Assembly (NCBI GenBank): GCA_000153145.1
Contig: CH672415.1
Coordinates: 1,732,767-1,796,766, forward strand
Reading direction: 5' to 3'
Length of the DNA: 64,000 bases
DNA from: a marine actinobacterium PHSC20C1
GTDB taxonomy: Bacteria; Actinomycetota; Actinomycetes; Actinomycetales; Microbacteriaceae
Positions 49,512 through 64,000 of this stretch are shown here, piece by piece. Position 1 is the first letter of the stretch, and every line of letters starts with the position of its first letter. The position numbers were made by a program, and so were the translations under genes. A model generated the notes under the pieces. That model saw only the letters and a program-made list of their open reading frames with translations. It was not told the DNA's origin and did not search any database.

Positions 49512-49964
49512 CTAGCCCTCGTAGCGCTCCACCCGCAGTACGCAGCTGAGGTCGTCTTCAGCGACAGGAATCGAAATCTTCCAGTCGGCGGTTGCTCCAG
49601 GTTCTGTCGCGTCTACGTCTACCTGAGTGAGTGCGCGGGTGTCGTTAGCACCGTTGAGCAGCGAGACGTAGATGCGATAGGTCACGCTTGCGGCTGTCGA
49701 GTTGGTGACAGTGCCTGACACGGTCCACTCGTCGCCGGAGCGCTTGCATTCCTCAACGGTTGAGTCCGCGAGGGCGCCTTGAAGGTTCTCCCCGGTTCCC
49801 GGAGCGTCTGTGATGTCGGTGATGCCGGGAGTCTGCTCTGACGCGGCAGAGCTTTCGGTCGGCTCAGGCTGACCTTCGGTTCCGTTGTTGGTGCAACCGG
49901 CAAGCGTGAGCGCCAGAATCGCAAAGGGTACGGCGGTGACGGTCAGTCGTGTGCGGAGGTTCAT
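49512..49964 (-). CDS. Small secreted lipoprotein, FxLYD-like domain
   Basis: The 150-residue product has a lipoprotein signal peptide (LALTLAGCTNNG), a Ser/Thr/Glu-rich linker and a small beta domain from about residue 70 (EWTVSGTVTNSTAASVTYRIYVSLL), like the FxLYD-type domains of actinobacterial surface lipoproteins. A Cys pair (EECKRS and LSCVLRV) may form a disulfide. Its ATG overlaps the stop of the giant surface protein by four bases, so they are coupled. Function unknown; a surface partner of the giant protein is a fair inference. Confidence 0.8.
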   Translation of the reverse strand: MNLRTRLTVTAVPFAILALTLAGCTNNGTEGQPEPTESSAASEQTPGITDITDAPGTGENLQGALADSTVEECKRSGDEWTVSGTVTNSTAASVTYRIYVSLLNGANDTRALTQVDVDATEPGATADWKISIPVAEDDLSCVLRVERYEG

Positions 49965-52900
49965 GATGTTTCCTGTCGTTGTTTTCTGCGTGCGAGCAGG
50001 ATCAGTGCGAGGCCGGCGAGCAGTGTGCCGAGCCCGGTTGCGAGCGTTCCTCGTGGATCTGATCCAGTGTAAGAGAGTGCCTTGGTAGGTAGCTGCAAGC
50101 TTGTTTGTGCTGTGGCAAACACGGGATCGCCCGAGTTGAGCTCGGTGCTGGTGACGGTTGCGGTCTCAAGGAGAACGGTTCCCGCATCACTTTCACGGAT
50201 GACGTAGGTTGCTGTTGCCGTAATCGATTCGCCCGGCTCCAGCTGGCCTACGGTTCCCGGCCAGGTGCCATAGCTCATCACTGAGAGTCCCGAGCGCGGG
50301 TCGGCGATCGTGACGTTCGTGAGGGGCAGCGTTCCCGTGTTCGTTGCGATGTACGTGAATGTCACGACGTCTCCAGGGAAGCCCTTTTGGCCTGCTCCCA
50401 GCACTCCCGATAACCGCAGCGCGATGCTGGGCAGGTTGGGGATTGCGAGAGTGTTCGTTGCTGATTCTGGTGCGATCGCACCAGAGGGCGCGTTCGCGTC
50501 GACGATCGCTTCATTCACGGTCTGTTCGACATCCACATCATCCTGCGTGATGACGTAGGTGGCTGTCGCGACCAGCTTCTGGCCTGGGGTAAGTTCGCCT
50601 GCGGTTCCGGGCCACGTGTAGTTGAGTGGCGAAAGGCCAACCTTGATGTCGGTGATCGCCACTGACGTGAGCGTCACGTTTCCGGTATTGACAACCTCGA
50701 TGCGGTAGTTGATTGTCGCGCCCTGTTGAGCGAAGGTCGCGAAGGAACTTGTCTTTGCGATCGTCATCGACGGGTTCTCAGCAATCGGCGTCGATCCCGA
50801 GGCCGAGTCGATTACGACGGGTCCAACAACGGGTGCGCCCGAAGTCGAAGCGCCGGAACTGATCGCGCCAGCATCCACATCATCCTGGGTGAGCACGTAC
50901 TTCGCAGTCGCTATTGCAACCTGTCCCGGAGCGAGCACACGAAGCGTTCCCGGCCAAGTGATCTTCACCACACTCAGATCGATCTGGTCGTCGGAGATCG
51001 TCACCCCGTTGAGAGTGACATCGCCGGTGTTAGTGACTTCGAAGCGGTACTCGACTGTGTCTCCAGCGCGACCAGTTGCCGCAGCCGCGAGCGCTTGAGT
51101 TTTAGTGATCTGGATGTCTGCACTGCCAGCAGCGGTCGGCGTCACTACCGTATTTGAGGTGTTGCTTACAGCTCCACCGCCCGGGTTCGTACCCGAGCCC
51201 CGTGCCGTGTTCGACGCGGAACCGGCATCAAATTCTGACTGCCTTACCTGATAGCTCGCCGTCGCCGTCACAGACTCGTTAGGAGCCAGCACACCAACGA
51301 CGCCAGGCCACGTTCCGTATACAACGGCTGTGGTGCCGACCTTGGGGTCGGAGACAGTGACGCCCCTGAGAGTCGTCTCGCCATCGTTGAGCACCGTGAA
51401 GGTGTAATCGATCCAGGAGCCAACAACCACAGGGTTGAGCGCATCGCGAACCTCAGCGACCTTGTCAATGTCGAGGCTCGAGGATGCTGCCACGAGAGGC
51501 ACTACCGACACTGCCGAATCGGCATCTACGGCGATCGCGGTCGGAGAATTTCCCGCCCCTGTCGCAATGTTGCGCACTTCTCCAGCGTCAACATCCGCCT
51601 GGGTTACCAGTCGAGTTGCCGTGACCGTGACACTTTCGCCTGGCGCGAGAACGCCGGGAGCTGCGACATCTGGCCACGTGTACACGAAGCTGGTGAGGCC
51701 AGGAATCGTGTTCGCAAGTGTGACGCCGTCGAGGGTGACGTTGCCGCTATTGCTGATCTGGAAGGTGTAGTCCATGCTGTCGCCGAGCACACCCGTTTGC
51801 CCGTCAGCGAGTGCTGCAGTGTGAGTGGTCACGATGGATGGAACAGCAGGCTCGGTCGGATTGTTCACCGTGTTTGAGACTCCGCGAACTTCGTCACCGT
51901 TGGGGGCTGTTCCGACCGCAACCGCGGTGTTCTCGACAGTGCCATCGTCAACGTTCTGCTGGGTCACCGTGTAGATGACAGATCCAACAGCTCGTTCGCC
52001 AGGGCCGAGGATACCGGTGGCCGAGGGGAAGGTCAGGTCAGACGGTACGACTGCGATAAGCGGGTCGATGACCCCCACGAGTCGCAGCGTAACGTTGCCG
52101 GTGTTCTTCACGATGAAGCTGTACGTGATCTCAGATCCAACCCCGCCGTCACCGGCTGTCATTACTCCGGACTTTTCCGCTGTGATGCTGGGGTCGGATG
52201 CTTCAGTCACTTCACGGTCAACGTTCGAGTTGGCCGTTACGGCGGTGCGTTCAGGAGTCTCGCCGCGAGCAGATGCTGTGTTGTCGACGTAACCGCGGTC
52301 AACATCGTCTTGCTCGAGAACGTAGGTTGCGCTTGCTGTTGCGGTTTGGCCCGGTGCAAGAACACCGCTGGCTGCTGGCCAGACGATCGAGTTGATCGTG
52401 ACGTGTTCAATGCTGTCGCTGATCGTTACCGAGCGCAGCGTCACGTTTCCCGTGTTCTCGACGACGATCGTGTAGTTGATGGTGTCGCCTGGACCGTTCT
52501 CTCCTGCAACAGCGAGTTCACTCGATTTGCGTACGTCGAGCAGTCCGTTGGCGGCCAGAGTGACTGTGGCTGGAGCGCTGGCGATTGCCGCGGCTCCGAT
52601 GGAAGGCGTTCCTTCACCGGTCACGATGCTGGATACAGCACCGGAGTCAATGTCGGCCTGTGTCAGGGTCTGCACGCGAACCGCAGTCACTGCCTCACCG
52701 GGTGCGAGCACTCCAATCGTTCCAGGCCAGGTGTAGTCGCCTGCCGGAAGTGATCCGATGAAGTCGCTGAGCTCAACACCAGAGAGTGTGACATTGCTGT
52801 TGTTGGTGAAGTTGTAGTCCCAAGTGACCGTGTCACCCTCTACTGCGGGACCTGGGTTCGTCAATGCCCCGGAGTTTGTTACAGCGACGACGACGTTTGG

Positions 52901-55900
52901 CGCCTCAGTGGGAACCTCTTCTGTGTTGGAAATCGCTGAGATTGCGTCACCACGTACAGGAACCGCGGCAGCATTCGCCGTGTTCTCAACGTAACCGCGA
53001 TCGACATCCGACTGGCGGATGACATAGCTCGCGGTTGCGCTTACCGTTTCGGTCGGTGCGAGAGTTTCCGTCGCGGTTGGCCAGTTCACGGTAGGCGTCG
53101 TCATTCCAGGAAGTAGATCAGTGACAACAATCGAACCGATTGTCACGTTGCCCGTGTTGCGTACGACGAATGTGAAGTCGACGGTGTCACCGATTGCTCC
53201 AACACCCGGAGATCGCGCGTCACCAGACTTGACGACGGTCATACTCGGCTGGGCCTGAACCGTTGGAGTTCTGACCCGGTTTGGCGTAGCGAACACGTAG
53301 ACGCCGTTCGGGTCAGTTGCTCTCACGGACGCGGAGCTCTCTACGTAGCCGCGGTCGATGTCCGCCTGCGTGAGCTGAACCGAAGCTGTTCCGGTCACCT
53401 TTTCGCCGGGCAGTATGGTTCCCGGTTGTGCAGGGTTTGGCCACTCAATAACGGGAGTCGTGAGCCCACCAGAGGCGCTGACGAGCGTGCCGTCAGTGAG
53501 GGTCACATTCCCAATGTTGACGACTTCGAGGAGGTAGTCGACCCAGTCGCCTACCTTGCCAATGTCACCATCGCGGAGGTCTCCCCAGAGGAACGGGTCA
53601 AGAGCTCCGGCAGCAACGATCGCTACTGTCGCGGGAGCTGACTCGCTAAATTCGACACCCGAGGGTGGGGTCGCGTCACCGCGCACCGTGTTCACCACTG
53701 ACCCGGAATCGATGTCATCTTGAGTGAGCATGTAGGTTGCCGTCGCGGTCACCGTTTGTCCTGGCGCGAGCGTGCCTGCGCTAGCGGTGGGCCACGAGTA
53801 GGTCAGTGCCGAGACACCAGAGAGCCCGTCAACAAGATCAACCCCAGTCACAGTCTGGTTTCCGGTGTTCTTGAGCGAGAAACTGAAGTTAACAAGGTCG
53901 CCCTCGAAGCCTGTTGAACCAGGAGCCAGAGCACCACTCTTCGTGACGAGGATGCTCGGGGCTGCAACATCCGTCGGCGTCGACTTCGAGGCAGTGTTGC
54001 TCGGTACGGGAGCATCGTTCGGCGAGGTTCCATTGGCGATCGCCGAGTTATCGACGCGGCCACGGTTCACATCAGCCTGCGTGATCGCGTACGTTGCCGT
54101 TGCTGTCGCGGTCTCAGTCGGAGCGAGCACACCATTCGTGTCTGGCCAGTCGACGACTGGGGTGCTTAGCCCTGGCAGCGGGTCACTGATTACGATGGCA
54201 TCGACCGTGACATTTCCGGTGTTCTCGACCAGGAATGTGTAAGTGATGATGTCGCCGACGCCAGCGCTTGTTCCTGTCGTCGAAGACTTGGCGAGCGTGA
54301 GCGCAGCAGCAGCGGGAGCGACTGTCGTCTCGGTTACTGTGGTGCTGACCGAAATGGTGTCACCGACTGGCGGCTTTCCGCTGGCGGTGGCCACGTTCGA
54401 TACCGAGCCGCGATCGACATCATTCTGCGTGATGGTGTAGTTCGCAGTAGCGGTAACCGTCTGACCTGGTTCCAGTTCTCCAACAGTGCCCGGCCACGTG
54501 AACACCGGGCTGCTGACGCCTGCGAGAGCATCGACGAGGTTGACCAGCGTGAGTGTGACGTTGCCGGTGTTGGTGATTCCGAAGCTGTAATCGATCGTGT
54601 CTCCGGAGTTGCCCGTGTTGCCGACGCCGTTGAGGGCGCCAGCCTTGGTAACAGTCATGCCAGCCTGCGCTGCGAGAACTACGCCCGCTGTCGCTAGGTC
54701 GCTTACGTTATCGCCGCGAGGCGGTGTTCCCGAACCGGTCGCCTGGCTCGACACGGATCCCGCATTGATCTGCGCCTGAGTAATGGCGGATGTCGCCGTC
54801 GCTGTCACCGATTGGCCGGGTTCGAGAACGCCAGCCGTTCCGGGCCAAACGTAAGTCATTCCAGAGATCAGCGGTAGCGCATCCACGATTTCCACAACCG
54901 TTAGCGTGACGTTTCCCGTGTTGGTCAGTTCGTACGACCAGTTGACGATGTCGCCTTCGTCGGCACGAGCTAGATCAGCGAGCACACCGCTTTTGGTGAG
55001 CTCGACGACCGCACGAATCGTTTCTGTGGGAACCGTATTGGCTGCCGAGTCGTCGGTGACGGGAGTGCTGTTGGGGTCGATTCCGTTAGCCGTCGCGATA
55101 TTGAGCACCGCGCCAGCATCCACATCGTCCTGAGTTACGGCATAGGTCGCAGTTGCCGTGGCAACCTCTCCAGGAGCGAGTATGCCGGGGCTGGCCGGAG
55201 TAGGCCATGTGATGGTGATTGCCGACAGGTTTGGCAGCGGGTCACTGAGCGTCACGGAGTTGAGCGTGACGTTTCCAGAGTTGAGAATCTCAAATTCATA
55301 ATCGATCGTGTCAGCTACATCAGCGGAACCGCGCGGTGTTCCCGCTTTCGTGACCCTAATATTCGGCGACGGGAGCACCATGGGCACGATGACCTCGTTG
55401 GATGCCTCAACAATCACAACACCCTTGGGCGTCTCTGCGGACATATCTGCAGTGTTGGGGATATAGCCGCGGTCAACGTCTGCCTGCGTTATCTCGTACG
55501 TCGCAACACCCAGTACAGACTGGCCAACCGGGATCTCACCTGGCTTGTCGTTGTCCGGCCAAGTGATCACGGGAACAGATAGTCCTGGCAAGGGGTCGAG
55601 AAGCATGCCGTTGTAGAGCGTTACGTTTCCATCGTTGGTAACCGTAAGGCGGTACTCGACGGTGTCTCCAACAGCACCGATACCACCGTTCAGGATGGTG
55701 CCCGACTTGAACGGGGTCAGCACAGGAACAGGTGTGATCGTGACAGTCTCGTCTGCGGCGTGCTGCACTGCGCCGCCAGCGGGAGTGTCGCCGTCGGCGG
55801 TGACGGTGTTGTCAATCTGGCCTGCATCCACATCAGCTTGAGTAAGGGTGTACGTCGCCACCGCTGTCGCACTCTGGCCGGGAGCAAGCTTGCCGTCAGT

Positions 55901-58900
55901 TGCGGTCGGCCAGGTGTACGTCAGCACGTTCAATTCGGGTAGCGGATCGGTCAGCGTGACATTCGTCAGCGTGACGTTTCCGGTGTTACGCACAGTGAAT
56001 GAGTAGTTGACAGTGTCGCCTGCGAAACCAGTTGCGCCGGCCTCAAGCGCGCCATTCTTGGTGACATTTATGGCGGGAGCTGCGGTGTTGGTCGGAACGT
56101 CAACCGGCCCAACGGACGAGGTGACAGCGCCGATGGGCGAGGTGCCATCTACGTCAGCAGTGTTCCGCACATAGCCGCGGTCAACATCGGCCTGCTTTAT
56201 CTCGTAGGTTGCGGTCGCGGTCGCGGATTCTGCCGGAGCTAGCTCGCCGGCCGCGCCAGGCCACGAGTACACAAGTGTGGAGATTCCAACGAGCGGATCG
56301 GTAATGGCGACGCCGGTCAACGTCGTGTTGCCCGTGTTCTTGATAGTGAAACTGAAGTGTGCGAGATCGCCTAGAGCGGCGCCGTCCGGAGTTGTCCCGA
56401 CCTTGTCGATCGTGGCAGAGGAGGTGCGAGTGACCGTGGTGTTGACGGCGGGGTCTGAGAACTCGAAGTATTCGGTTCCTGCAGGAGTCACGCCAAGCGC
56501 TTCGGCAGTGTTCGTGACCGAGCCCGCATCGACATCATCTTGAGTGATTGTGTACTTAGCGGTCGCGGTAGCAATCTCGCCCGGAGCGAGAACCCGGGCT
56601 GCCCCCGGCCATGTAAGAACCGGGGCACTCACACCGGCAAGCGAATCGAGAAGCACAACGCCAGAAAGCGTGACATTACCAGAGTTGGTGATGCTGAATT
56701 CGTAGTCGATTACGTCGCCGACTACTCCGAGTTGTGCGTCGAGAGAACCGGTCTTGACGACCGTGAAATTGGGTGCTGCCGTCAACGGCAGCGTCGCCGA
56801 AGCAGGCTCGGTAACCCCGGAACCTGTGGGCGGAAGGCCTGTCGCGTTGATGCTGTTCGCTACTGATCCGGCGTCGATATCACTTTGCAACAGTGTGTAC
56901 GTCGCTGTTGCAGAAACGGTGTCACCCGGGTTGAGTCGACCGGCGGTTCCGCTTGCCCACGCGCCGAAGGTGACAGCGGTGAGTCCCGGCAGTTGATCAA
57001 TAATGTCTACAGCTGTCAGCGAAACGTTTCCGTCGTTCGTGACCGTGAAGCTGTAGTTGACAGTGTCGCCCGCAACACCGGTAGCTCCCGGAGCGAGGGC
57101 GGCAGCCTTAGTCGCTACGAGAGACGAGTCCGCAGCCACAGTCTCGGTGACGACTTCGGGTGAATTGCCACTGACCGGAGTGCCCTGGGCTCCCGTTCCG
57201 TTGGCGGTAGCGGTGTTCACTACCTCCCCGTTGTCCACGTCGGACTGTCTGATCAAGTAGGTTGCCGTTGCCGTAACACTTTCGCCCGGTGCGAGGGATT
57301 GAGTGGTATTCGCCGCATCCCAGCCAATGACCGGAGTGCTGAGCCCTGGCAGCGGGTCACTGAGCGTGATTCCGGAAGTCGTGACGTTGCCATTATTCGT
57401 AATGACAAACGTGTACGTGATCTCGTCGCCGTATTCGCCCGCACCGGCGACGCTGGCTGTCTTAGCAACAGTGAGCACCGGCGTTGGACGTTCTGTGGCT
57501 ATCACGACGGTATTGGTCAGTGCTGGCACGACCACGTTGTTCGGCGTCAACGCCTGGACTTTTGCAGTGTTCTCGATGTAACCGCGGTCGATGTCAACCT
57601 GCGTTAGTAGGTACTCGGCAGTGCCGGTGACTGACTCGTTAACTTTCAGAACACCGGGGTTCGCTGGGTCTGGCCACACAATGTTCGGGTCGCTGATGCC
57701 CGGTAGTGGGTCGACAAGCTGGCCGTTGTGCAGCGTGACGTTACCCGTATTAGTTGCCGTTACGGAGTAGTCAATGATGTCGCCAACCGCACCGATTCCG
57801 GGGGCGCGCAGGCTTCCACTCTTGATCGCGCTAAGGCTCGCATCAGGCTCGACCACGACGGTTGATGTGTCATCGTCGGTGACGTTGGCCGCACCGCCGG
57901 GAGGCGTCGCGGTTCCGGTTACGGTGTTCATTACAGCACCAGAGTCAATATCTGGTTGCGTGAGTGTGTAGGTCGCTTCTGCGGTCACTGCCTGCCCGGG
58001 AGCAAGTTCGCCCGCGGTTGCTCCCGCTGGCCAGGTGTAGGTGATCCCGGAGATGTTCGGGAGGTCGTCTGTCAGGTTGACCGCGGTCAGAGTGACGTTT
58101 CCCGTGTTCTTCAGTGTGAAAGAGTAGAGGATTTTGTCGCCATTGCGGCCTGTTGATCCCGGCTCTAGCGCACCGACCTTGTTGACCACGATGGTTGGAC
58201 TCTGCGCGACCAGCGGAGTTACGGCCGCCGGTGAATCATCGCTGACATCAGCGCTATCGCGCACTGACTTGGCTGCACCAGTAGCTGTGTTGCTCACAGA
58301 TCCGGCATCGACATCAGCCTGCGTGACCGTGTAATTCGCGGTGGCGGTGATCGTGTCACCGGGAGAAAGTTCACCGTCAATGCCTGAAGGCCACGTGCCG
58401 AAAGCGAGCGGGCTGAGTCCAACGAGGGTGTCACTGATCGCGGCATTGGTAACCGTGACGTTGCTGCCGTTGGTCAAGGTGATCGAGTAGCTGATTGTGT
58501 CGCCGACAACTCCGGTGCCGTTGAGCACGGCATCCTTCGTAGTAGTCACAAGCAGAGTAGCCGCCTCGGTCGCAACGGTGGCGGTGTTTGAATCTTCGTT
58601 CAGGATCACGCCGGCAGGGGTCCAACCAGCGACGGAAGAGTCGTTTTCGACGAAGCCACGGTCGATATCTTCTTGACTAAGGACGTAGGTCGCGGTTGCC
58701 GTCAGTACATCGTTCGGGCCCAGCGTTCCTGCAGTGTTTCCGTCCCAGTCGTTGTAGCTAATAACCGAGACGCCATCGAGCTCATCAGTGATACTCACTC
58801 CAGTAAGAGTGACGTTTCCGGTGTTAGTGACAGTGAACGTAAAGCCAACGGTGTCGCCCACACCGCGAGCGGCCGGAGTGGCATCTTCAGATTTCACGAT

Positions 58901-61900
58901 CGTGATACCTGCGTCGGCGACGAGCGGCACAGTAGCTGCGGTAGTTGCCCTAGCTACAGCACCGCGCGTTGGAGTTCCCGATGCCGTCACTGAGTTCACG
59001 ACAGATCCAGAGTCGACATCTGACTGAGTCACAACGTAACCGTTTGCCGTGGCCGAAACAGTGTCGCCGGGATTGAGCTGGCCCGAGATTCCGCTGGGCC
59101 AAGCACCAAAGACGGGAGTGACTCCCGCTAGGGCATCGCTGAGGTTGACGCCACTAAGAGTTACGTTTCCGGTGTTCGTGACGGTGAAGGACCAGTCGAT
59201 CAAGTCGCCAGCTTTACTAGCCGCAGTGCCCGACTTCGTGACCGAGATCCCTGGCGCAGCGGCTACCGTGCGTGTTGATACCGAGGAAACCGGGCTGGCG
59301 ACGGGGTCACCGGCGACCGCAGTGGTACCGGACGCAGTTACGGTGTTCAATACGGAGCCAGCATCGACGTCGTTTTGAGTAATCGTGTAGTCGACAGCCA
59401 CTGAGGTGGAGTCTCCGGGGTCAAGGGTCGTCACCGGCAGCACTGGTGTCGAGGCACCCAGCATCGGATCGTTGAGCACCGCGTTCTCGACTGTGACGTT
59501 TCCGGTGTTTGTCACCACGAACGAATAGGTAATCGTCGATCCGACAATCGCGGGGTTGGGCACCACGCTGGTTGTCTTCACAACTTTGAGCTCGGGGCGG
59601 CTAGCACCGGTAGCAACAACCACGTCGCCAGAACTATCGGAGACCTGTGCGGCTCCGCCCGGCGGGTTCGCCGTGACGGATGCTTCGTTCGTTACACTCC
59701 CGAAGTTAACGTCGTCCTGATCAATTGTGTAGGTCGCGACTGCGACCGCGCTTTCACCCGGTGCCAATTCGTTTGGCGTTCCCGGCCAAGTGAAGACGGG
59801 GGTCGTTAGTCCGGGAAGGCTGTCGACCAGTGTGACAACGGTGAGGGTTTGGTTTCCCGTGTTGCGAATCGTCATCGTGAACGTAATGTCGTCGCCGACC
59901 GAACCAGTTCCGCCAACTGTCGCGGTCTTATCTACGGCAATTCGCGGTGCGGCTGCGATCGACACCGTCTCAGGGTCAGTCAGCGAGAGCGCCGTTCCCG
60001 ACGGCGGAGTTGCCGCGAGGGTTGCCTCGTTCGCGACACTGCCTGCATCCACATCGGACTGTTTGACGGTGTACTCGGCTTTCGCCGTGACCGTCTGTCC
60101 CGGCGCTAGGCGACCGGCGGTTCCTGGCCACGTGTAAGTGATGGAACCAAGGTCGGGCAATGGGTCTGTGACGCCGACGCTAGTGAGCGTGACGTTTCCG
60201 GTGTTCTTTGCAGTGAAGGTGTACGTAATCGTTTCGCCGGCAATACCGACTGAGCCGGGGTTCAGCGAGCCCGACTTCGTAAAGGTTGCGGCGGCATTTG
60301 TTGCAACCGTCGACGTGAGCAGTTCGTCAGAAGGATCACTAATGACACCGGCTGCTGGCGCTGTACCCTGACCGCTCGCGGTGTTGCTCACGACTGTGGC
60401 ATCAACATCCGCTTGCTTGATCGTGTACTTTGCGGTCGCAACGACTTGAGTGTTTGGCTGCAGCGTGCCGGTTACTCCCCCCGGCCACGCGCCATACGTG
60501 AGTGCGCCGAGACCCGGCAGCGGATCGCTTGCCGTTACCGAGGTGAGCGTGACGTTACCCGTGTTGCGCACGGTAATCGAGTACGTGATGACATCGCCAA
60601 CAGCGCCGGTGCCCGAGACGGTCGACGACTTGGTGGTGAGGATGCCGGGGGCCCGTGTTGCGGTGGAGATCGACACGGCGGGCGATGATGCGGTCGCGTT
60701 GGGCCCCGTCGGTGGCTTTCCTGAGACGGAAGCCGTATTCGTTACGGTTCCTGCGTTTTGGTCTGATTGGCGGATGACATAGTCAGCGGTTGCCGTGATC
60801 GTCTGCCCTGGTGCCAGGCGGCCCGCTGTTCCGCTAGCCCAGGTCCCATAAGAAATAGCGCTGAGGCCGGAGTGAGTGTCAGTGATCGTCACACCGGTGA
60901 GAGTGACGTTTCCCGTGTTCTCAGCGGTGAACGTGTAACGAACAGTGTCGCCAACAGCTCCCGTGCCGGGAGTCACGATTGCTGCAGCCTTATCGAGCGT
61001 GAGGCTTGAGTTTGAGGCTAGTGCGAGAGTTGCAGGAGCCGTTGCCGAAGCGGGCGATCCGCGCGGCGGGGTTCCTGCGCCGGTCGCTGTGTTCGACACC
61101 GCACCGGCGTCAATATCTGCCTGCGTAAGAACGTAGGTCGCGGTGGCAGTAACACTCTGTGCTGGGGCAAGCGTTCCTGCTGTGGACGGCCAGGTGCCGT
61201 AGGTCACTGCCGAAATTCCCGGCAGTGAGTCCGTGACGTTCACTGAGTTGAGAGTTACATTTCCCGTGTTGGTGAGCGTCATGCTCCACGTGACGGTATC
61301 GCCGGCCTTGCCCTGCGCTCCCGGGGCGAGAGCGCCAGACTTTGTCACGCCGATTTTGGGGGCAGAGGCAACCGTCGGAGTGACGAGCTGCGACGACACG
61401 TCGGTGACAACAGCTCGGGTGGGTGGAGTTCCCGACGATGTCGCTGTGTTCTTGACCGAGCCGGCATCGACATCCGCCTGGGTGATTGTGTACGTCGCCG
61501 TACCCGTCACAGTTTCATTCGGGTTGAGCTGGCCGGATACCCCGCCCGACCACACGTACGTCGGAGCCGAGAGGCCGGGGAGCGGGTCGGTGAGGGTGAC
61601 CTCGGAGAGGGTTACGTTGCCCGTGTTGCGCGAAGTGAGGGTGTACGTGATGACATCACCGACGACTCCAGTACCGCTGACCGAGGCGCTCTTCAGAGTT
61701 CTAATCGCCGGTGCCGCCGGAACAACCTGAACTACTGCTTCGGCAGAGGTTGCTGTCGCAGCTGGCCCTGACGGTGGGGTTCCGGATGCTGTTGCCGTGT
61801 TGCGCACGTCTCTGGCATTCACATCGGACTGCTTAATGATGTAGGACGCGGTAGCGGTGACCTGAGTGTTTGGCGCGAGCGTGCCGGCTGTCCCGCCCGG

Positions 61901-64000
61901 CCACGTACCAAAATTCACCGTGCCGAGATCGGGAAGCGTGTCTGTGATCCCAACGCTCGACAGCGTGACGTTACCCGTGTTCTTGACGACGAAGGAGAAG
62001 GTGATGGTGTCGCCAACGCTGCCGTTTCCCGACGTCACTGCGCCAGACTTCGAGACCGTCAGTTTTGCGCTCGCTACGAGCGGTACGGTTGCGCTGCTGC
62101 TAGCGGATGCTGAACCACCGAGCGCCCCGGTGCCTGTTGCATTTGCGGTGTTCGCGATCGAACCCGCATCTACGTCGGGCTGCTTCACCGTATAGTTCGC
62201 GGTTGCCGTTACCTGAGTGCCCGGCGCCAAAGTTCCGGCGGTGCCTGACGGCCACGTTCCAAACGTGATTGCGGAAAGATCAGGGAGCGGATCGGTGATC
62301 GCAGCGCCCGAAATGGTGACGTTGCCGGTGTTGCGCAGTACGAAGCTGTAGGTGATGACCTCGCCAGCCCGCGCGGTCGAGCCAGAAGGCAGAGCACCGG
62401 ACTTTGCGAGCGAGAGTGTGGGAGCTGCGGTAACCGTTGTCGTCACTACGTTGTCGGAGTCGTCAGTGACAGGTATTGCGCCTGGAGCTGTAGCGTCAGC
62501 CGTCGCGCGGTTAGTGATCGAACCGAAGTCGACATCCGCTTGCTTGACCGTGTAGTTAGCCTTGGCGGTGGCTGACTGTCCGGGTGATAGACGCCCGGAA
62601 ACGCCTGGCCACGTGATGACCGGTGTCGACAGTCCAGCAAGCGAGTCAGTGAGCGTGATGCCAGTGAGCGTCTGGTTTCCGCTGTTAGCAATCGTGATCG
62701 AGTAGGTAATCACGTCGCCGACTTTGGCACCAGAAGTTACGCTGGCCGATTTGGTTGTCGTCAGTTCCGGCGCCGCCGCTGAAGTTGGAACAACTGCGGT
62801 GGACGTCGGCGAGGTCACTGTGGCATTCGTCGGGGTCTTGCCCGCTACCGTCGCGGTGTTTGAGACGGATCCCGCGTCGACATCAGCCTGCTTCACGGTA
62901 TAGGTTGCGGTCGCCGTTGCTGTCTCGCCCGGGGCGATACGACCCGCAGTAGCGGTCGGCCACGTGTACACCGGTGCTGAAAGTCCTGACAGTGAGTCCG
63001 AAATTGCGACACCCGTCATCGTCACGTTGCCGGGGTTAGTGATGCTGAACGTGAACGTCATTGTGCTTCCGACTCCGCCAGCGCCCGACGTAACCGAACC
63101 GGACTTCGCAACCGCGAGCGACGCGTTCGACGCGACGACAACAGTAGCGGGGTCCGATGCCGTAACCGCCGCGCCAGTAGGAGGCGTGCCACGCGTGGTC
63201 GCACTGTTGGCGACCGAGCCCGCATCGACATCCGACTGCTTCAGAATGTAAGTCGCTGTAGCGGCGACCTGAGTGTTCGGCAAAAGCTTTCCCGCGGTTC
63301 CGCTCGGCCAGGTGCCGAACGTGATCGCCGAAAGCCCGGAAAGTGGATCGGTGACTCCGACACCGGTGAGGGTGACGTTTCCCGTGTTGCGAACTACGAA
63401 ATCGTAATTGACAGCGTCGCCAGCTTTTCCGGTAGCGCCAGTCTCGAGGGCACCATCCTTTGCGAGCCAAATGGTGCGAACGGCGGCGACTGTTGGCGTT
63501 GTCACCGGGGGCGAAGGATCCGTAACTGTCGTACCGCCGTAGCTGCCCTGTGAGCTTGCGGTGTTCTTGACCGAGCCGGCGTCCACGTCGGATTGAACGA
63601 TCGTGTACGTCGCCGTTGCCGTAATTTCAGCGCCAGGTGCAAGGGTTCCAGAAACCCCACCGGGCCATGTGCCATACGACACGGCACTCAAGCCAACAAG
63701 CGGGTCAGTGATCTGGACACCTGTGAGGGACACGTTTCCGATGTTCTTCGCGGTGAGGGTGTAAGTAATGACGTCGCCAACCGCACCGGTGCCCGAGACG
63801 CCTGCCGACTTGGTCGTGTCGATTGCGGGAGAAGCAGCAACAGTTGGCACGACAGCCTGCGTCGAAGTCGCCGAGATCGCGGCGCCCGTAGGCGGAGTCC
63901 CCGATGCCGTGGCCGTGTTTTTCACCGAACCTGCGTTGACGTCTTTCTGCAGGATTGTGTAGGTGGCCGTAGCGGTCACCTGAGTGTTGGGAGCAAGGGT
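49961..64000 (-). CDS. Giant DUF7507-repeat cell-wall surface protein (5' end beyond window)
   Basis: One uninterrupted frame fills the last 14 kb and runs off the window edge, so the N-terminus is missing; at least 4,679 residues are encoded. I count 39 complete repeats and one partial one, each about 118 residues. Consensus parts are VGDTITYSFTVTNTGNVTLTGV, then DPLPGLS, TWPGTAGxLAPGQTVTATATYT and QADVDAGSVxNTA. This fits DUF7507 (conserved repeat domain, TIGR01451-like), an Ig-like surface fold. The C-terminus has LSYTGSDP, a hydrophobic helix and RRKQRQETS: a sortase signal with an unusual LSYTG motif. It should form a long stalk on the cell wall, perhaps an adhesin. No sortase gene is in the window. 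Confidence 0.93.
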   Translation of the reverse strand, partial: TLAPNTQVTATATYTILQKDVNAGSVKNTATASGTPPTGAAISATSTQAVVPTVAASPAIDTTKSAGVSGTGAVGDVITYTLTAKNIGNVSLTGVQITDPLVGLSAVSYGTWPGGVSGTLAPGAEITATATYTIVQSDVDAGSVKNTASSQGSYGGTTVTDPSPPVTTPTVAAVRTIWLAKDGALETGATGKAGDAVNYDFVVRNTGNVTLTGVGVTDPLSGLSAITFGTWPSGTAGKLLPNTQVAATATYILKQSDVDAGSVANSATTRGTPPTGAAVTASDPATVVVASNASLAVAKSGSVTSGAGGVGSTMTFTFSITNPGNVTMTGVAISDSLSGLSAPVYTWPTATAGRIAPGETATATATYTVKQADVDAGSVSNTATVAGKTPTNATVTSPTSTAVVPTSAAAPELTTTKSASVTSGAKVGDVITYSITIANSGNQTLTGITLTDSLAGLSTPVITWPGVSGRLSPGQSATAKANYTVKQADVDFGSITNRATADATAPGAIPVTDDSDNVVTTTVTAAPTLSLAKSGALPSGSTARAGEVITYSFVLRNTGNVTISGAAITDPLPDLSAITFGTWPSGTAGTLAPGTQVTATANYTVKQPDVDAGSIANTANATGTGALGGSASASSSATVPLVASAKLTVSKSGAVTSGNGSVGDTITFSFVVKNTGNVTLSSVGITDTLPDLGTVNFGTWPGGTAGTLAPNTQVTATASYIIKQSDVNARDVRNTATASGTPPSGPAATATSAEAVVQVVPAAPAIRTLKSASVSGTGVVGDVITYTLTSRNTGNVTLSEVTLTDPLPGLSAPTYVWSGGVSGQLNPNETVTGTATYTITQADVDAGSVKNTATSSGTPPTRAVVTDVSSQLVTPTVASAPKIGVTKSGALAPGAQGKAGDTVTWSMTLTNTGNVTLNSVNVTDSLPGISAVTYGTWPSTAGTLAPAQSVTATATYVLTQADIDAGAVSNTATGAGTPPRGSPASATAPATLALASNSSLTLDKAAAIVTPGTGAVGDTVRYTFTAENTGNVTLTGVTITDTHSGLSAISYGTWASGTAGRLAPGQTITATADYVIRQSDQNAGTVTNTASVSGKPPTGPNATASSPAVSISTATRAPGILTTKSSTVSGTGAVGDVITYSITVRNTGNVTLTSVTASDPLPGLGALTYGAWPGGVTGTLQPNTQVVATAKYTIKQADVDATVVSNTASGQGTAPAAGVISDPSDELLTSTVATNAAATFTKSGSLNPGSVGIAGETITYTFTAKNTGNVTLTSVGVTDPLPDLGSITYTWPGTAGRLAPGQTVTAKAEYTVKQSDVDAGSVANEATLAATPPSGTALSLTDPETVSIAAAPRIAVDKTATVGGTGSVGDDITFTMTIRNTGNQTLTVVTLVDSLPGLTTPVFTWPGTPNELAPGESAVAVATYTIDQDDVNFGSVTNEASVTANPPGGAAQVSDSSGDVVVATGASRPELKVVKTTSVVPNPAIVGSTITYSFVVTNTGNVTVENAVLNDPMLGASTPVLPVTTLDPGDSTSVAVDYTITQNDVDAGSVLNTVTASGTTAVAGDPVASPVSSVSTRTVAAAPGISVTKSGTAASKAGDLIDWSFTVTNTGNVTLSGVNLSDALAGVTPVFGAWPSGISGQLNPGDTVSATANGYVVTQSDVDSGSVVNSVTASGTPTRGAVARATTAATVPLVADAGITIVKSEDATPAARGVGDTVGFTFTVTNTGNVTLTGVSITDELDGVSVISYNDWDGNTAGTLGPNDVLTATATYVLSQEDIDRGFVENDSSVAGWTPAGVILNEDSNTATVATEAATLLVTTTKDAVLNGTGVVGDTISYSITLTNGSNVTVTNAAISDTLVGLSPLAFGTWPSGIDGELSPGDTITATANYTVTQADVDAGSVSNTATGAAKSVRDSADVSDDSPAAVTPLVAQSPTIVVNKVGALEPGSTGRNGDKILYSFTLKNTGNVTLTAVNLTDDLPNISGITYTWPAGATAGELAPGQAVTAEATYTLTQPDIDSGAVMNTVTGTATPPGGAANVTDDDTSTVVVEPDASLSAIKSGSLRAPGIGAVGDIIDYSVTATNTGNVTLHNGQLVDPLPGISDPNIVWPDPANPGVLKVNESVTGTAEYLLTQVDIDRGYIENTAKVQALTPNNVVVPALTNTVVIATERPTPVLTVAKTASVAGAGEYGDEITYTFVITNNGNVTTSGITLSDPLPGLSTPVIGWDAANTTQSLAPGESVTATATYLIRQSDVDNGEVVNTATANGTGAQGTPVSGNSPEVVTETVAADSSLVATKAAALAPGATGVAGDTVNYSFTVTNDGNVSLTAVDIIDQLPGLTAVTFGAWASGTAGRLNPGDTVSATATYTLLQSDIDAGSVANSINATGLPPTGSGVTEPASATLPLTAAPNFTVVKTGSLDAQLGVVGDVIDYEFSITNSGNVTLSGVVLLDSLAGVSAPVLTWPGAARVLAPGEIATATAKYTITQDDVDAGSVTNTAEALGVTPAGTEYFEFSDPAVNTTVTRTSSATIDKVGTTPDGAALGDLAHFSFTIKNTGNTTLTGVAITDPLVGISTLVYSWPGAAGELAPAESATATATYEIKQADVDRGYVRNTADVDGTSPIGAVTSSVGPVDVPTNTAAPAINVTKNGALEAGATGFAGDTVNYSFTVRNTGNVTLTNVTLTDPLPELNVLTYTWPTATDGKLAPGQSATAVATYTLTQADVDAGQIDNTVTADGDTPAGGAVQHAADETVTITPVPVLTPFKSGTILNGGIGAVGDTVEYRLTVTNDGNVTLYNGMLLDPLPGLSVPVITWPDNDKPGEIPVGQSVLGVATYEITQADVDRGYIPNTADMSAETPKGVVIVEASNEVIVPMVLPSPNIRVTKAGTPRGSADVADTIDYEFEILNSGNVTLNSVTLSDPLPNLSAITITWPTPASPGILAPGEVATATATYAVTQDDVDAGAVLNIATANGIDPNSTPVTDDSAANTVPTETIRAVVELTKSGVLADLARADEGDIVNWSYELTNTGNVTLTVVEIVDALPLISGMTYVWPGTAGVLEPGQSVTATATSAITQAQINAGSVSSQATGSGTPPRGDNVSDLATAGVVLAAQAGMTVTKAGALNGVGNTGNSGDTIDYSFGITNTGNVTLTLVNLVDALAGVSSPVFTWPGTVGELEPGQTVTATANYTITQNDVDRGSVSNVATASGKPPVGDTISVSTTVTETTVAPAAAALTLAKSSTTGTSAGVGDIITYTFLVENTGNVTVDAIVISDPLPGLSTPVVDWPDTNGVLAPTETATATATYAITQADVNRGRVDNSAIANGTSPNDAPVPSNTASKSTPTDVAAPSILVTKSGALAPGSTGFEGDLVNFSFSLKNTGNQTVTGVDLVDGLSGVSALTYSWPTASAGTLAPGQTVTATATYMLTQDDIDSGSVVNTVRGDATPPSGVEFSESAPATVAIVAAGALDPFLWGDLRDGDIGKVGDWVDYLLEVVNIGNVTLTDGTLVSASGGLTTPVIEWPNPAQPGTILPGEKVTGTASVQLTQADIDRGYVESSASVRATDPNGVYVFATPNRVRTPTVQAQPSMTVVKSGDARSPGVGAIGDTVDFTFVVRNTGNVTIGSIVVTDLLPGMTTPTVNWPTATETLAPTETVSATASYVIRQSDVDRGYVENTANAAAVPVRGDAISAISNTEEVPTEAPNVVVAVTNSGALTNPGPAVEGDTVTWDYNFTNNSNVTLSGVELSDFIGSLPAGDYTWPGTIGVLAPGEAVTAVRVQTLTQADIDSGAVSSIVTGEGTPSIGAAAIASAPATVTLAANGLLDVRKSSELAVAGENGPGDTINYTIVVENTGNVTLRSVTISDSIEHVTINSIVWPAASGVLAPGQTATASATYVLEQDDVDRGYVDNTASARGETPERTAVTANSNVDREVTEASDPSITAEKSGVMTAGDGGVGSEITYSFIVKNTGNVTLRLVGVIDPLIAVVPSDLTFPSATGILGPGERAVGSVIYTVTQQNVDDGTVENTAVAVGTAPNGDEVRGVSNTVNNPTEPAVPSIVTTHTAALADGQTGVLGDSMDYTFQISNSGNVTLDGVTLANTIPGLTSFVYTWPDVAAPGVLAPGESVTVTATRLVTQADVDAGEVRNIATGAGNSPTAIAVDADSAVSVVPLVAASSSLDIDKVAEVRDALNPVVVGSWIDYTFTVLNDGETTLRGVTVSDPKVGTTAVVYGTWPGVVGVLAPNESVTATASYQVRQSEFDAGSASNTARGSGTNPGGGAVSNTSNTVVTPTAAGSADIQITKTQALAAAATGRAGDTVEYRFEVTNTGDVTLNGVTISDDQIDLSVVKITWPGTLRVLAPGQVAIATAKYVLTQDDVDAGAISSGASTSGAPVVGPVVIDSASGSTPIAENPSMTIAKTSSFATFAQQGATINYRIEVVNTGNVTLTSVAITDIKVGLSPLNYTWPGTAGELTPGQKLVATATYVITQDDVDVEQTVNEAIVDANAPSGAIAPESATNTLAIPNLPSIALRLSGVLGAGQKGFPGDVVTFTYIATNTGTLPLTNVTIADPRSGLSVMSYGTWPGTVGQLEPGESITATATYVIRESDAGTVLLETATVTSTELNSGDPVFATAQTSLQLPTKALSYTGSDPRGTLATGLGTLLAGLALILLARRKQRQETS
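50063..50077 (-). other. Sortase-type sorting motif LSYTG
   Basis: LSYTG is followed by about 12 residues, a hydrophobic stretch of some 15 residues and a positively charged tail. The layout fits sortase anchoring although the first two motif residues differ from LPxTG. Confidence 0.6.
50093..64000 (-). repeat. Hierarchical tandem repeat array (118-residue units in groups of three and six)
   Basis: Units are about 352 bases. Every third unit shares subtype features; for example units starting near 63829, 62770, 61710 and 60648 share a SGxGxVGDVITY opening, a 1.06 kb period. In the middle, units starting near 57848, 55730 and 53615 share insertions (WPDPANPG-type, DRGYIEN) with a 2.1 kb period. 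This points to expansion by duplicating blocks of three and then six units. Confidence 0.85.

Follow-up and report, generated by a model that had tools for sequence, protein, structure and literature searches.

Does the order of the domains in a giant bacterial surface protein carry information, or does only their number matter? This question is raised by a gene of the marine actinobacterium PHSC20C1 (Microbacteriaceae), part of which lies in the window analysed here, a stretch of 64,000 nucleotides of contig CH672415.1 (assembly GCA_000153145.1, positions 1,732,767 to 1,796,766 of the forward strand). The frame on the reverse strand extends past the window edge and makes up the last 77% of a gene that is complete in the organism's own genome (G000; single contig, 2.77 Mb; G000:C1:1782727-1800960) with a GTG start outside the window, so that the N-terminus missing from the window is now recovered. 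The protein of 6,077 amino acids contains 48 units of ~117 residues each, and the window carries units 10 to 48. Our analysis finds a nested order of three and six units, which in sequence terms is written mainly at the junctions between domains. We propose, tentatively and as a matter close to even but not beyond it, that the protein is a secreted, wall-anchored stalk in which this order is kept for geometry and, where one class of unit has lost its predicted cross-link, for extensibility.

Order of the units along the protein

The units belong to the Pfam family DUF7507 (renamed CLIPPER_2, PF24346), which matches the window part with 3452 bits (cut-off 27) over 40 stretches; the whole gene has 47 matches above the cut-off. 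The fold is an Ig-like (CnaA-like) beta sandwich, and the predicted model of units 41–43 reaches a predicted local distance difference test (pLDDT) score of 93.1. For the analysis the protein was cut at a conserved NxGNxT-like motif, and unit n of the first-pass annotation corresponds to unit n+8 here.

An all-by-all identity matrix of units 2–48 (47 of the 48; unit 1 was excluded as too diverged) gives a mean unit identity of 0.454 at lag 3 (z 5.6) and 0.470 at lag 6 (z 7.4). The excesses at lag 9 (z 3.8) and lag 12 (z 3.7) are smaller, and z lies between -0.9 and 0.7 at lags 1, 2, 4, 5, 7 and 8. The value at lag 3 or lag 6 was reached by none of 5,000 shuffled orders. The first-pass annotation, made from the window alone, had described a giant surface protein of DUF7507 units in a nested 3- and 6-unit order and had proposed such a matrix as the check; its description is supported. 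Units 2–20 follow a period of three (identity 0.56 vs 0.49), and in units 21–44 the top lag is six (0.44), followed by lag 3 (0.405) and the remaining lags (0.38–0.39).

With class A defined as the units whose index is 2 mod 3, and classes B and C following it, the nearest unit is of the same class for 34 of the 43 units from 2 to 44, whereas 2,000 shuffled orders gave 13.5 such units on average and never more than 25. Near units 45–46 the order slips, the last units are out of phase and unit 46 is closest to class A. The earlier claim of a strict alternation of three subtypes therefore stands as regards the class order but not its strictness, since 9 of the 43 nearest matches cross classes. 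In the same way, the insertions described as six-unit signatures do mark units 27, 33 and 39 (19, 25 and 31 of the first-pass annotation) but are also found in other units. The motif WPxPxxPG is exact in units 27, 34 and 39, reads WPDNDKPG in unit 33 and WPDVAAPG in unit 44, and the second motif, in the form QxDxDRGY/F, also occurs in units 24, 31, 40 and 42.

At the DNA level, no tandem repeats were detected by Tandem Repeats Finder. The mean nucleotide identity of the units is 0.505–0.531 and the longest shared exact stretch is 21 bases (lags 1, 2, 3 and 6).

It could be argued that the array is a product of recombination or an assembly artefact without biological meaning, as the repeat gene is very long and its frame is split in two members of the genus (G010, G016) and in two relatives (G362, G175). 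However, eight intact members of the genus carry the same 48 units in register, and their rates of amino acid change are far below neutrality (see below). For the array as a whole this explanation is refuted, and we give it almost no weight. Misassembly is very unlikely because the genome is a single contig and the same 48 units are found in seven other intact orthologues of the genus. A second explanation, that the order keeps neighbours unlike and thereby prevents strand swapping or misfolding of tandem Ig domains, follows an idea proposed for other multidomain proteins (accessible parts of PMC4660218 and PMC6863430). Adjacent units are indeed only ~42% identical; however, the similarity between neighbours does not fall below that of units paired at random (z 0.67 and 0.45 at lags 1 and 2), which makes this explanation improbable.

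Junctions, selection and the age of the array

The columns that separate the classes were sought in four divergent arrays pooled (G000, G151, G062 and G158). All 16 columns with z >4 lie within columns 1–22 or 91–119, that is at the junctions, and none of the 68 intermediate columns exceeds this value (some are invariant and hence without z). The classes are separated most strongly by columns 116 and 119: the former holds mainly L, I or V in class A and mainly T in the other two classes, and the latter is missing from most class A units.

Junction length, measured from the Asn position of the predicted cross-link triad in one unit to the Lys position in the next, follows the same cycle. In the window's protein, 12 of the 14 A–B junctions are 34 residues long and two are 35, 13 of 14 B–C junctions have 36, and of the C–A junctions 9 of 14 have 36 and the rest 35 or 37. 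The other tabulated arrays show this tendency too, and in every one of seven arrays with 47 or 48 units the A–B junction has 34 residues 10–13 times out of 14. In the 39-unit arrays G252 and G206 odd units mostly have 34 and even units mostly 35. The alignments thus place the A-B-C order mainly in the domain junctions, with the passage from A to B usually two residues shorter (34 vs 36).

This confinement is the strongest evidence against the main rival of our proposal, according to which the order is a mere scar of block duplication, in blocks of three and six units (two and four in a sister lineage), the copy number froze after divergence and the units are generic spacers. A scar should fade evenly over the columns, yet class information above z 4 is found only in junction columns, and the 34-residue A–B junction persists in most cases despite an identity of only ~0.5 between genera. 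However, the rival accounts well for several other features. Homologous arrays differ in period, either 3/6 or 2/4, and some relatives have no clear order; because of this it stays the main rival, and we regard it as a serious possibility, though short of probable. The units are also too diverged for ordinary recombination, as the nucleotide identities above indicate. Among 30 arrays tested, 16 show period 3/6 (lag-6 z at least 5.4), to which G089 (lag-6 z 4.7) and the first frame of G175 (lag-3 z 4.2) can be added, and four show period 2/4, with G213 and the second, short, frame of G175 as further cases. G089, with 36 units, fits an in-phase loss of 12 units from a 48-unit ancestor, best as two blocks of six (6+6 against G158 and G260; 6+6 or one block of 12 against G062; one block of ~12 against G000).

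For the whole gene, the ratio of non-synonymous to synonymous substitution rates (dN/dS) is 0.08–0.12 across five species pairs; single units give 0.03–0.21 (mean of three species pairs), none of the 48 exceeding 0.21, in agreement with the earlier view that the intact frame reflects selection rather than decay. Four-fold degenerate third bases agree in a fraction of 0.316 overall, and the values for lag 3 (0.320) and lag 6 (0.311) show no excess. The lag 3/6 signal therefore resides in the protein, which again counts against a mere scar, and together with the low dN/dS of each unit this indicates that the order is ancient. Recent gene conversion among units of the same class was considered and rejected on the same ground, although lags 9 and 12 show a small four-fold excess. 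The idea that codons are scrambled so as to avoid repeats in the DNA was likewise rejected, as the G+C fraction at third codon positions (GC3, 0.652) and the codon entropy (1.90) of the array are within the range of 35 window genes (GC3 median 0.68, entropy up to 1.91).

The gene is patchy in the genus, with at least 48 DUF7507 matches in 10 of 27 genomes. The eight intact members (G000, G020, G006, G011, G001, G040, G041 and G005) all have 48 units; their proteins are 6,025–6,032 amino acids long counted from the VQWG motif and are 73–93% identical. In G010 and G016 the frame is split, and 48 units were detected in each. When named genomes were scanned with the N-terminal domain, a search that reaches close relatives only, five loci with 79–81% identity were obtained, all of Salinibacterium, the genus to which we assign the window (S. 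amurskyense DSM 16400, SWN248, NG253, SWN167 and PAMC 21357), and in the family the domain was matched, in a few cases weakly, in 30 of 398 genomes and 16 of 85 genera. Outside the genus, 48-unit arrays are present in G151, G062, G158, G260 and G212 (five arrays, three other genera), and G256 has 47 units. Between genera the arrays are only ~0.5 identical, and the best register is offset 0; the order therefore predates the split of those genes. The sequences thus describe an old 48-unit array, in one register across genera, each unit of which is under purifying selection in the genus.

The N-terminal tree was built from 29 frames (without G016, G010, G175, G097, G362, G546, G454 and G497) and the unrooted array tree from 15 arrays, without the split G016 and, G256 apart, without arrays of any other length. 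Split frames of the giant gene occur at loci L037 (G016), L038 (G010), L079 (G362) and L081 (G175), the break lying inside the array in G175 and, in the others, in the N-terminal part or close to it; phase switching, decay or sequencing error may each be the cause. In another family of the same order, G497 (L113 and L114) has a frame of 8,199 amino acids with 63 detected units, 57 of them with the K-D-N triad.

Predicted cross-links and unit class

DUF7507 domains are predicted to form a Lys-Asn isopeptide bond with Asp as catalyst, according to a 2025 survey (accessible part of PMC12617251). We mapped the residues named there to three columns of the unit alignment by position and spacing. The predicted triad is complete in 41 of the 48 units of the window's protein and missing in units 1, 35, 39, 41, 44, 46 and 48. 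K, D and N are invariant in an alignment of 12 of the 39 window units, none of which is among the units that lack the triad. Most units would therefore be expected to hold an isopeptide bond.

In some relatives the losses are periodic and follow the class. In G062, units 26–44 lack the triad in 7/7 cases of class A, 1/6 of B and 0/6 of C. Within the clade of G062, G256, G158, G260 and G212, the class A units 20, 26, 29, 32, 35, 38, 41 and 44, together with unit 46, are without the triad in 5/5 arrays. The sister arrays of 39 units have period 2, and a similar pattern is seen in six 39-unit and two 38-unit arrays, where odd units from 13 onwards, except the last one or two, are without a full triad and most even units keep it; most of these triad-less odd units classify as A. 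Permutation tests of triad loss covered 19 arrays, among them G252, G821 and G206 of this second group. In these lineages the predicted lock would thus be dropped at class A in the wall-near half, and that class A is the main site of loss in two lineages is hard to reconcile with generic spacers. The arrays without clear order mostly keep the triad (G028 28/29, G367 27/29, G176 23/25, G097 13/13 and G043 9/9 units; G030 14/19). Either the losses at class A are ancestral and the locks were regained in Salinibacterium, or they were lost in the other clade, the array tree being unrooted. For unit 35, six Salinibacterium species may have regained the triad, because G000, G005, G010, G151 and the other clade are all without it there. 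In a ten-unit homologue (L115, G546) the K-D-N triad is found in 0/10 units, at a distance where the alignment may be unreliable.

On this basis we suggest that the protein comprises a signal peptide, an N-terminal domain of ~365 residues, one DUF11-like and 47 DUF7507 Ig-like domains, and a sortase-like signal. Block duplications of three and six units would have built the array, and later selection would have kept the order at the junctions, where three inter-domain geometries, fixed and repeating along the stalk, could set its shape. Class A may be a tolerated site for an unlocked, extensible domain, and where it is unlocked, A domains among locked ones would give the stalk extensible elements at regular intervals. 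In the window's own species the junction pattern and most predicted locks are retained. At ~4 nm per domain the stalk would have a fixed length of ~200 nm.

Several observations weigh against this proposal. Triad losses in the window's own array (6/47) are not periodic, the period-3 value being reached in 4,304 of 5,000 shuffles, nor are those of G151 (3,232 of 5,000) or the whole arrays of G256, G089 and G158 (1,088, 622 and 434 of 5,000). In units 26–44 the window's array lacks the triad in only 3/7 units of class A, 1/6 of B and 0/6 of C, and in G158 class C also loses it (5/6). The table of units 26–44 and its hypergeometric test were set up after the pattern had been seen, and the five arrays share ancestry. 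A distant 34-unit array (L086, G213) has period 2 (lag-2 z 5.1) and keeps the triad in 32–34 of its 34 units; order therefore does not imply loss of the lock, as a scar would also allow. The six tandem relatives without clear order (G367, G176, G028, G030, G097 and G043; top z 2.6, at lag 1 in G030) also count in favour of a scar. Silent third bases agree slightly above the composition value (0.284) at every lag tested, with peaks at lags 9 (0.338) and 12 (0.336). The idea that copy number changes only in threes had to be rejected, as G256 has 47 units and G820 and G821 are each short of one of 39. A profile of 12 window units gave no match to solved chains at E 0.1, and the predicted model of the N-terminal domain (pLDDT 37.8) is unusable.

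A bolder version of the proposal takes the domain order as a mechanical programme, in which three cycling junction types would produce a superhelix, each cycle would contain one class from which the lock can be removed, and lineages would tune wall-near elasticity by one unit in three (or two), with length fixed at 48 or 39 units. We consider this version rather unlikely.

Protein ends, neighbouring genes and related stalks

The coordinates of the features are collected in Table 1. At its N-terminus the complete protein has a hydrophobic stretch ending in PAEA (judged by eye), followed by the N-terminal domain, for which neither an NCBIfam family nor a relative among solved chains was found; it has no DUF3344 match, and a weak one is present in 4 of 23 relatives. 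The C-terminal motif LSYTG matches neither LPxTG nor LAxTG exactly, and the NCBIfam LPXTG_anchor score (15.3 bits) is just below its cut-off of 15.9. Most relatives outside the genus have LAxTG or LPxTG at the same place, and one sortase (PF04203 match) is encoded elsewhere on the chromosome of the window's genome. Together these sequence features suggest that the stalk is probably anchored to the wall. A second, weak DUF7507 match in the same genome (G000:C1:2375905-2376024; 22.2 bits, below the cut-off) lies inside a frame of 2,488 codons.

Table 1. Features of the giant gene and its downstream neighbour in window coordinates.
Feature	Position	Strand	Basis or remark
C-terminal 4,679 codons of giant surface protein	49961..64000	-	part of G000:C1:1782727-1800960
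39 complete Ig-like DUF7507 (CLIPPER_2) units, nos. 10-48 of 48	50099..63838	-	Pfam PF24346 and unit split
Partial unit 9, truncated by window edge	63839..64000	-	unit split
Sorting-like signal at the C-terminus (LSYTG, then hydrophobic stretch and basic tail)	49964..50077	-	sequence
150-aa lipoprotein-like protein, LAGC lipobox	49512..49964	-	directly downstream; start overlaps stop of giant gene (ATGA)
Unit 11, class A	63131..63481	-	
Unit 14, class A	62075..62425	-	
Unit 17, class A	61013..61363	-	
Unit 20, class A	59957..60298	-	
Unit 23, class A	58919..59269	-	opening diverged
Unit 26, class A	57845..58201	-	
Unit 27, class B	57491..57844	-	six-unit signature WPDPANPG / TQVDIDRGY
Unit 29, class A	56780..57130	-	
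Unit 32, class A	55730..56080	-	
Unit 33, class B	55376..55729	-	six-unit signature WPDNDKPG / TQADVDRGY
Unit 35, class A	54665..55015	-	cross-link Asn lost (K-D-S)
Unit 38, class A	53612..53962	-	
Unit 39, class B	53252..53611	-	six-unit signature; cross-link triad lost (L-S-S)
Unit 41, class A	52550..52897	-	triad lost (N-D-S), likewise in 15/15 arrays compared
Unit 44, class A	51482..51844	-	triad lost (H-N-N), likewise in 15/15 arrays compared

The four-base overlap with the lipoprotein gene is present in 25/25 arrays of 36–48 units with the gene end present, G016 and G010 included, and G028 has a similar lipoprotein with an eight-base overlap. In the same survey G043 and G546 gave no such gene, and the next genes of G367, G213, G030 and G454 are, by eye, unlike the lipoprotein. 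The overlap was not judged in G175 (frame breaks in the array) or in G664, G097 and G176 (genes run off the stretch), and G497 was outside the comparison. The C-terminus CVLRVERY/F or CVPRVERY is shared by 14 of 15 aligned lipoproteins (followed by an extension in G089), and no family reaches its cut-off, the best Pfam match being DUF7927 (E 0.0025, 18.5 bits, cut-off 31). The product could be a partner of the giant protein at the membrane or at the base of the stalk. Upstream, on the opposite strand, a gene for an N6/N4 DNA methylase (L009:19190-19999) is conserved in the Salinibacterium genomes G020, G006, G011, G001, G005, G040, G041, G016 and G010 and in G151.

Our literature search on super-repeats of bacterial surface proteins and isopeptide stalks found no description of a triplet order, of the junction pattern or of order-linked triad loss, and no paper on a Salinibacterium surface protein; in the library searched, DUF7507 is named by one paper (PMC12617251). 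The A-band of titin, a eukaryotic muscle protein, combines two domain families in super-repeats of 7 and 11 domains, and titin is not known to contain isopeptide bonds. Periscope Proteins have highly alike DNA repeats and are variable in copy number and gene length. The giant protein differs from these in having no tandem DNA repeat, a unit DNA identity of ~0.5 and, in a between-species comparison, 48 units in 8/8 intact members of the genus. As far as the accessible text of the sources goes, it shares with Periscope Proteins a bacterial surface stalk of tandem domains (PMC8201768), and with titin an ordered Ig-like super-repeat in a giant chain, for which a role as ruler has been proposed (PMC10665226, PMC7427331).

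The closest known systems are fibrillar adhesins with DUF7507/CLIPPER_2 and DUF11/CLIPPER domains, which have in common with our protein the DUF7507 family, the Lys-Asp-Asn triad and the tandem stalk (PMC12617251). According to the accessible part of that work, tandem alternation of DUF11 with DUF7507 is frequent and the bond is absent from some DUF11 domains; a triplet order is not described there. Within this search, the first-pass annotation's claim of novelty for the triplets stands; alternation in tandem had already been noted. Here, in contrast, a single family is arranged in ordered triplets, with a pattern of junction lengths and, in some relatives, triad loss linked to the order. The giant adhesin of Mobiluncus mulieris (7,651 amino acids, 51 Ig-like domains) is likewise a single-chain stalk of Ig domains with internal cross-links (PMC10619420, in the part accessible). 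It combines two bond types, in ester and isopeptide domains, whereas here a periodic order exists within one family; from one Mobiluncus species to the other the number of isopeptide domains changes by 21, but the unit count does not vary in the genus studied here. What appears new from the alignments is that the classes differ mainly at domain junctions, that A-to-B junctions are shorter and that triad loss is tied to class in some relatives.

Long bacterial adhesin stalks are commonly viewed as interchangeable beads of varying number. In the stalk described here, junction length is coupled to order and both are conserved across genera; some relatives also show a predicted cross-link state that follows the order. 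That other genera share the A-B-C register suggests a use for the domain order as such, beyond the number of domains. Nature offers period 2 with alternating locks, period 3 with class A loss and period 2 without loss, in arrays of 36, 38, 39, 47 and 48 units. Such a series of variants is suited to testing whether the stiffness and geometry of a stalk are encoded in the order of its domains, as a bacterial counterpart of the titin super-repeats.
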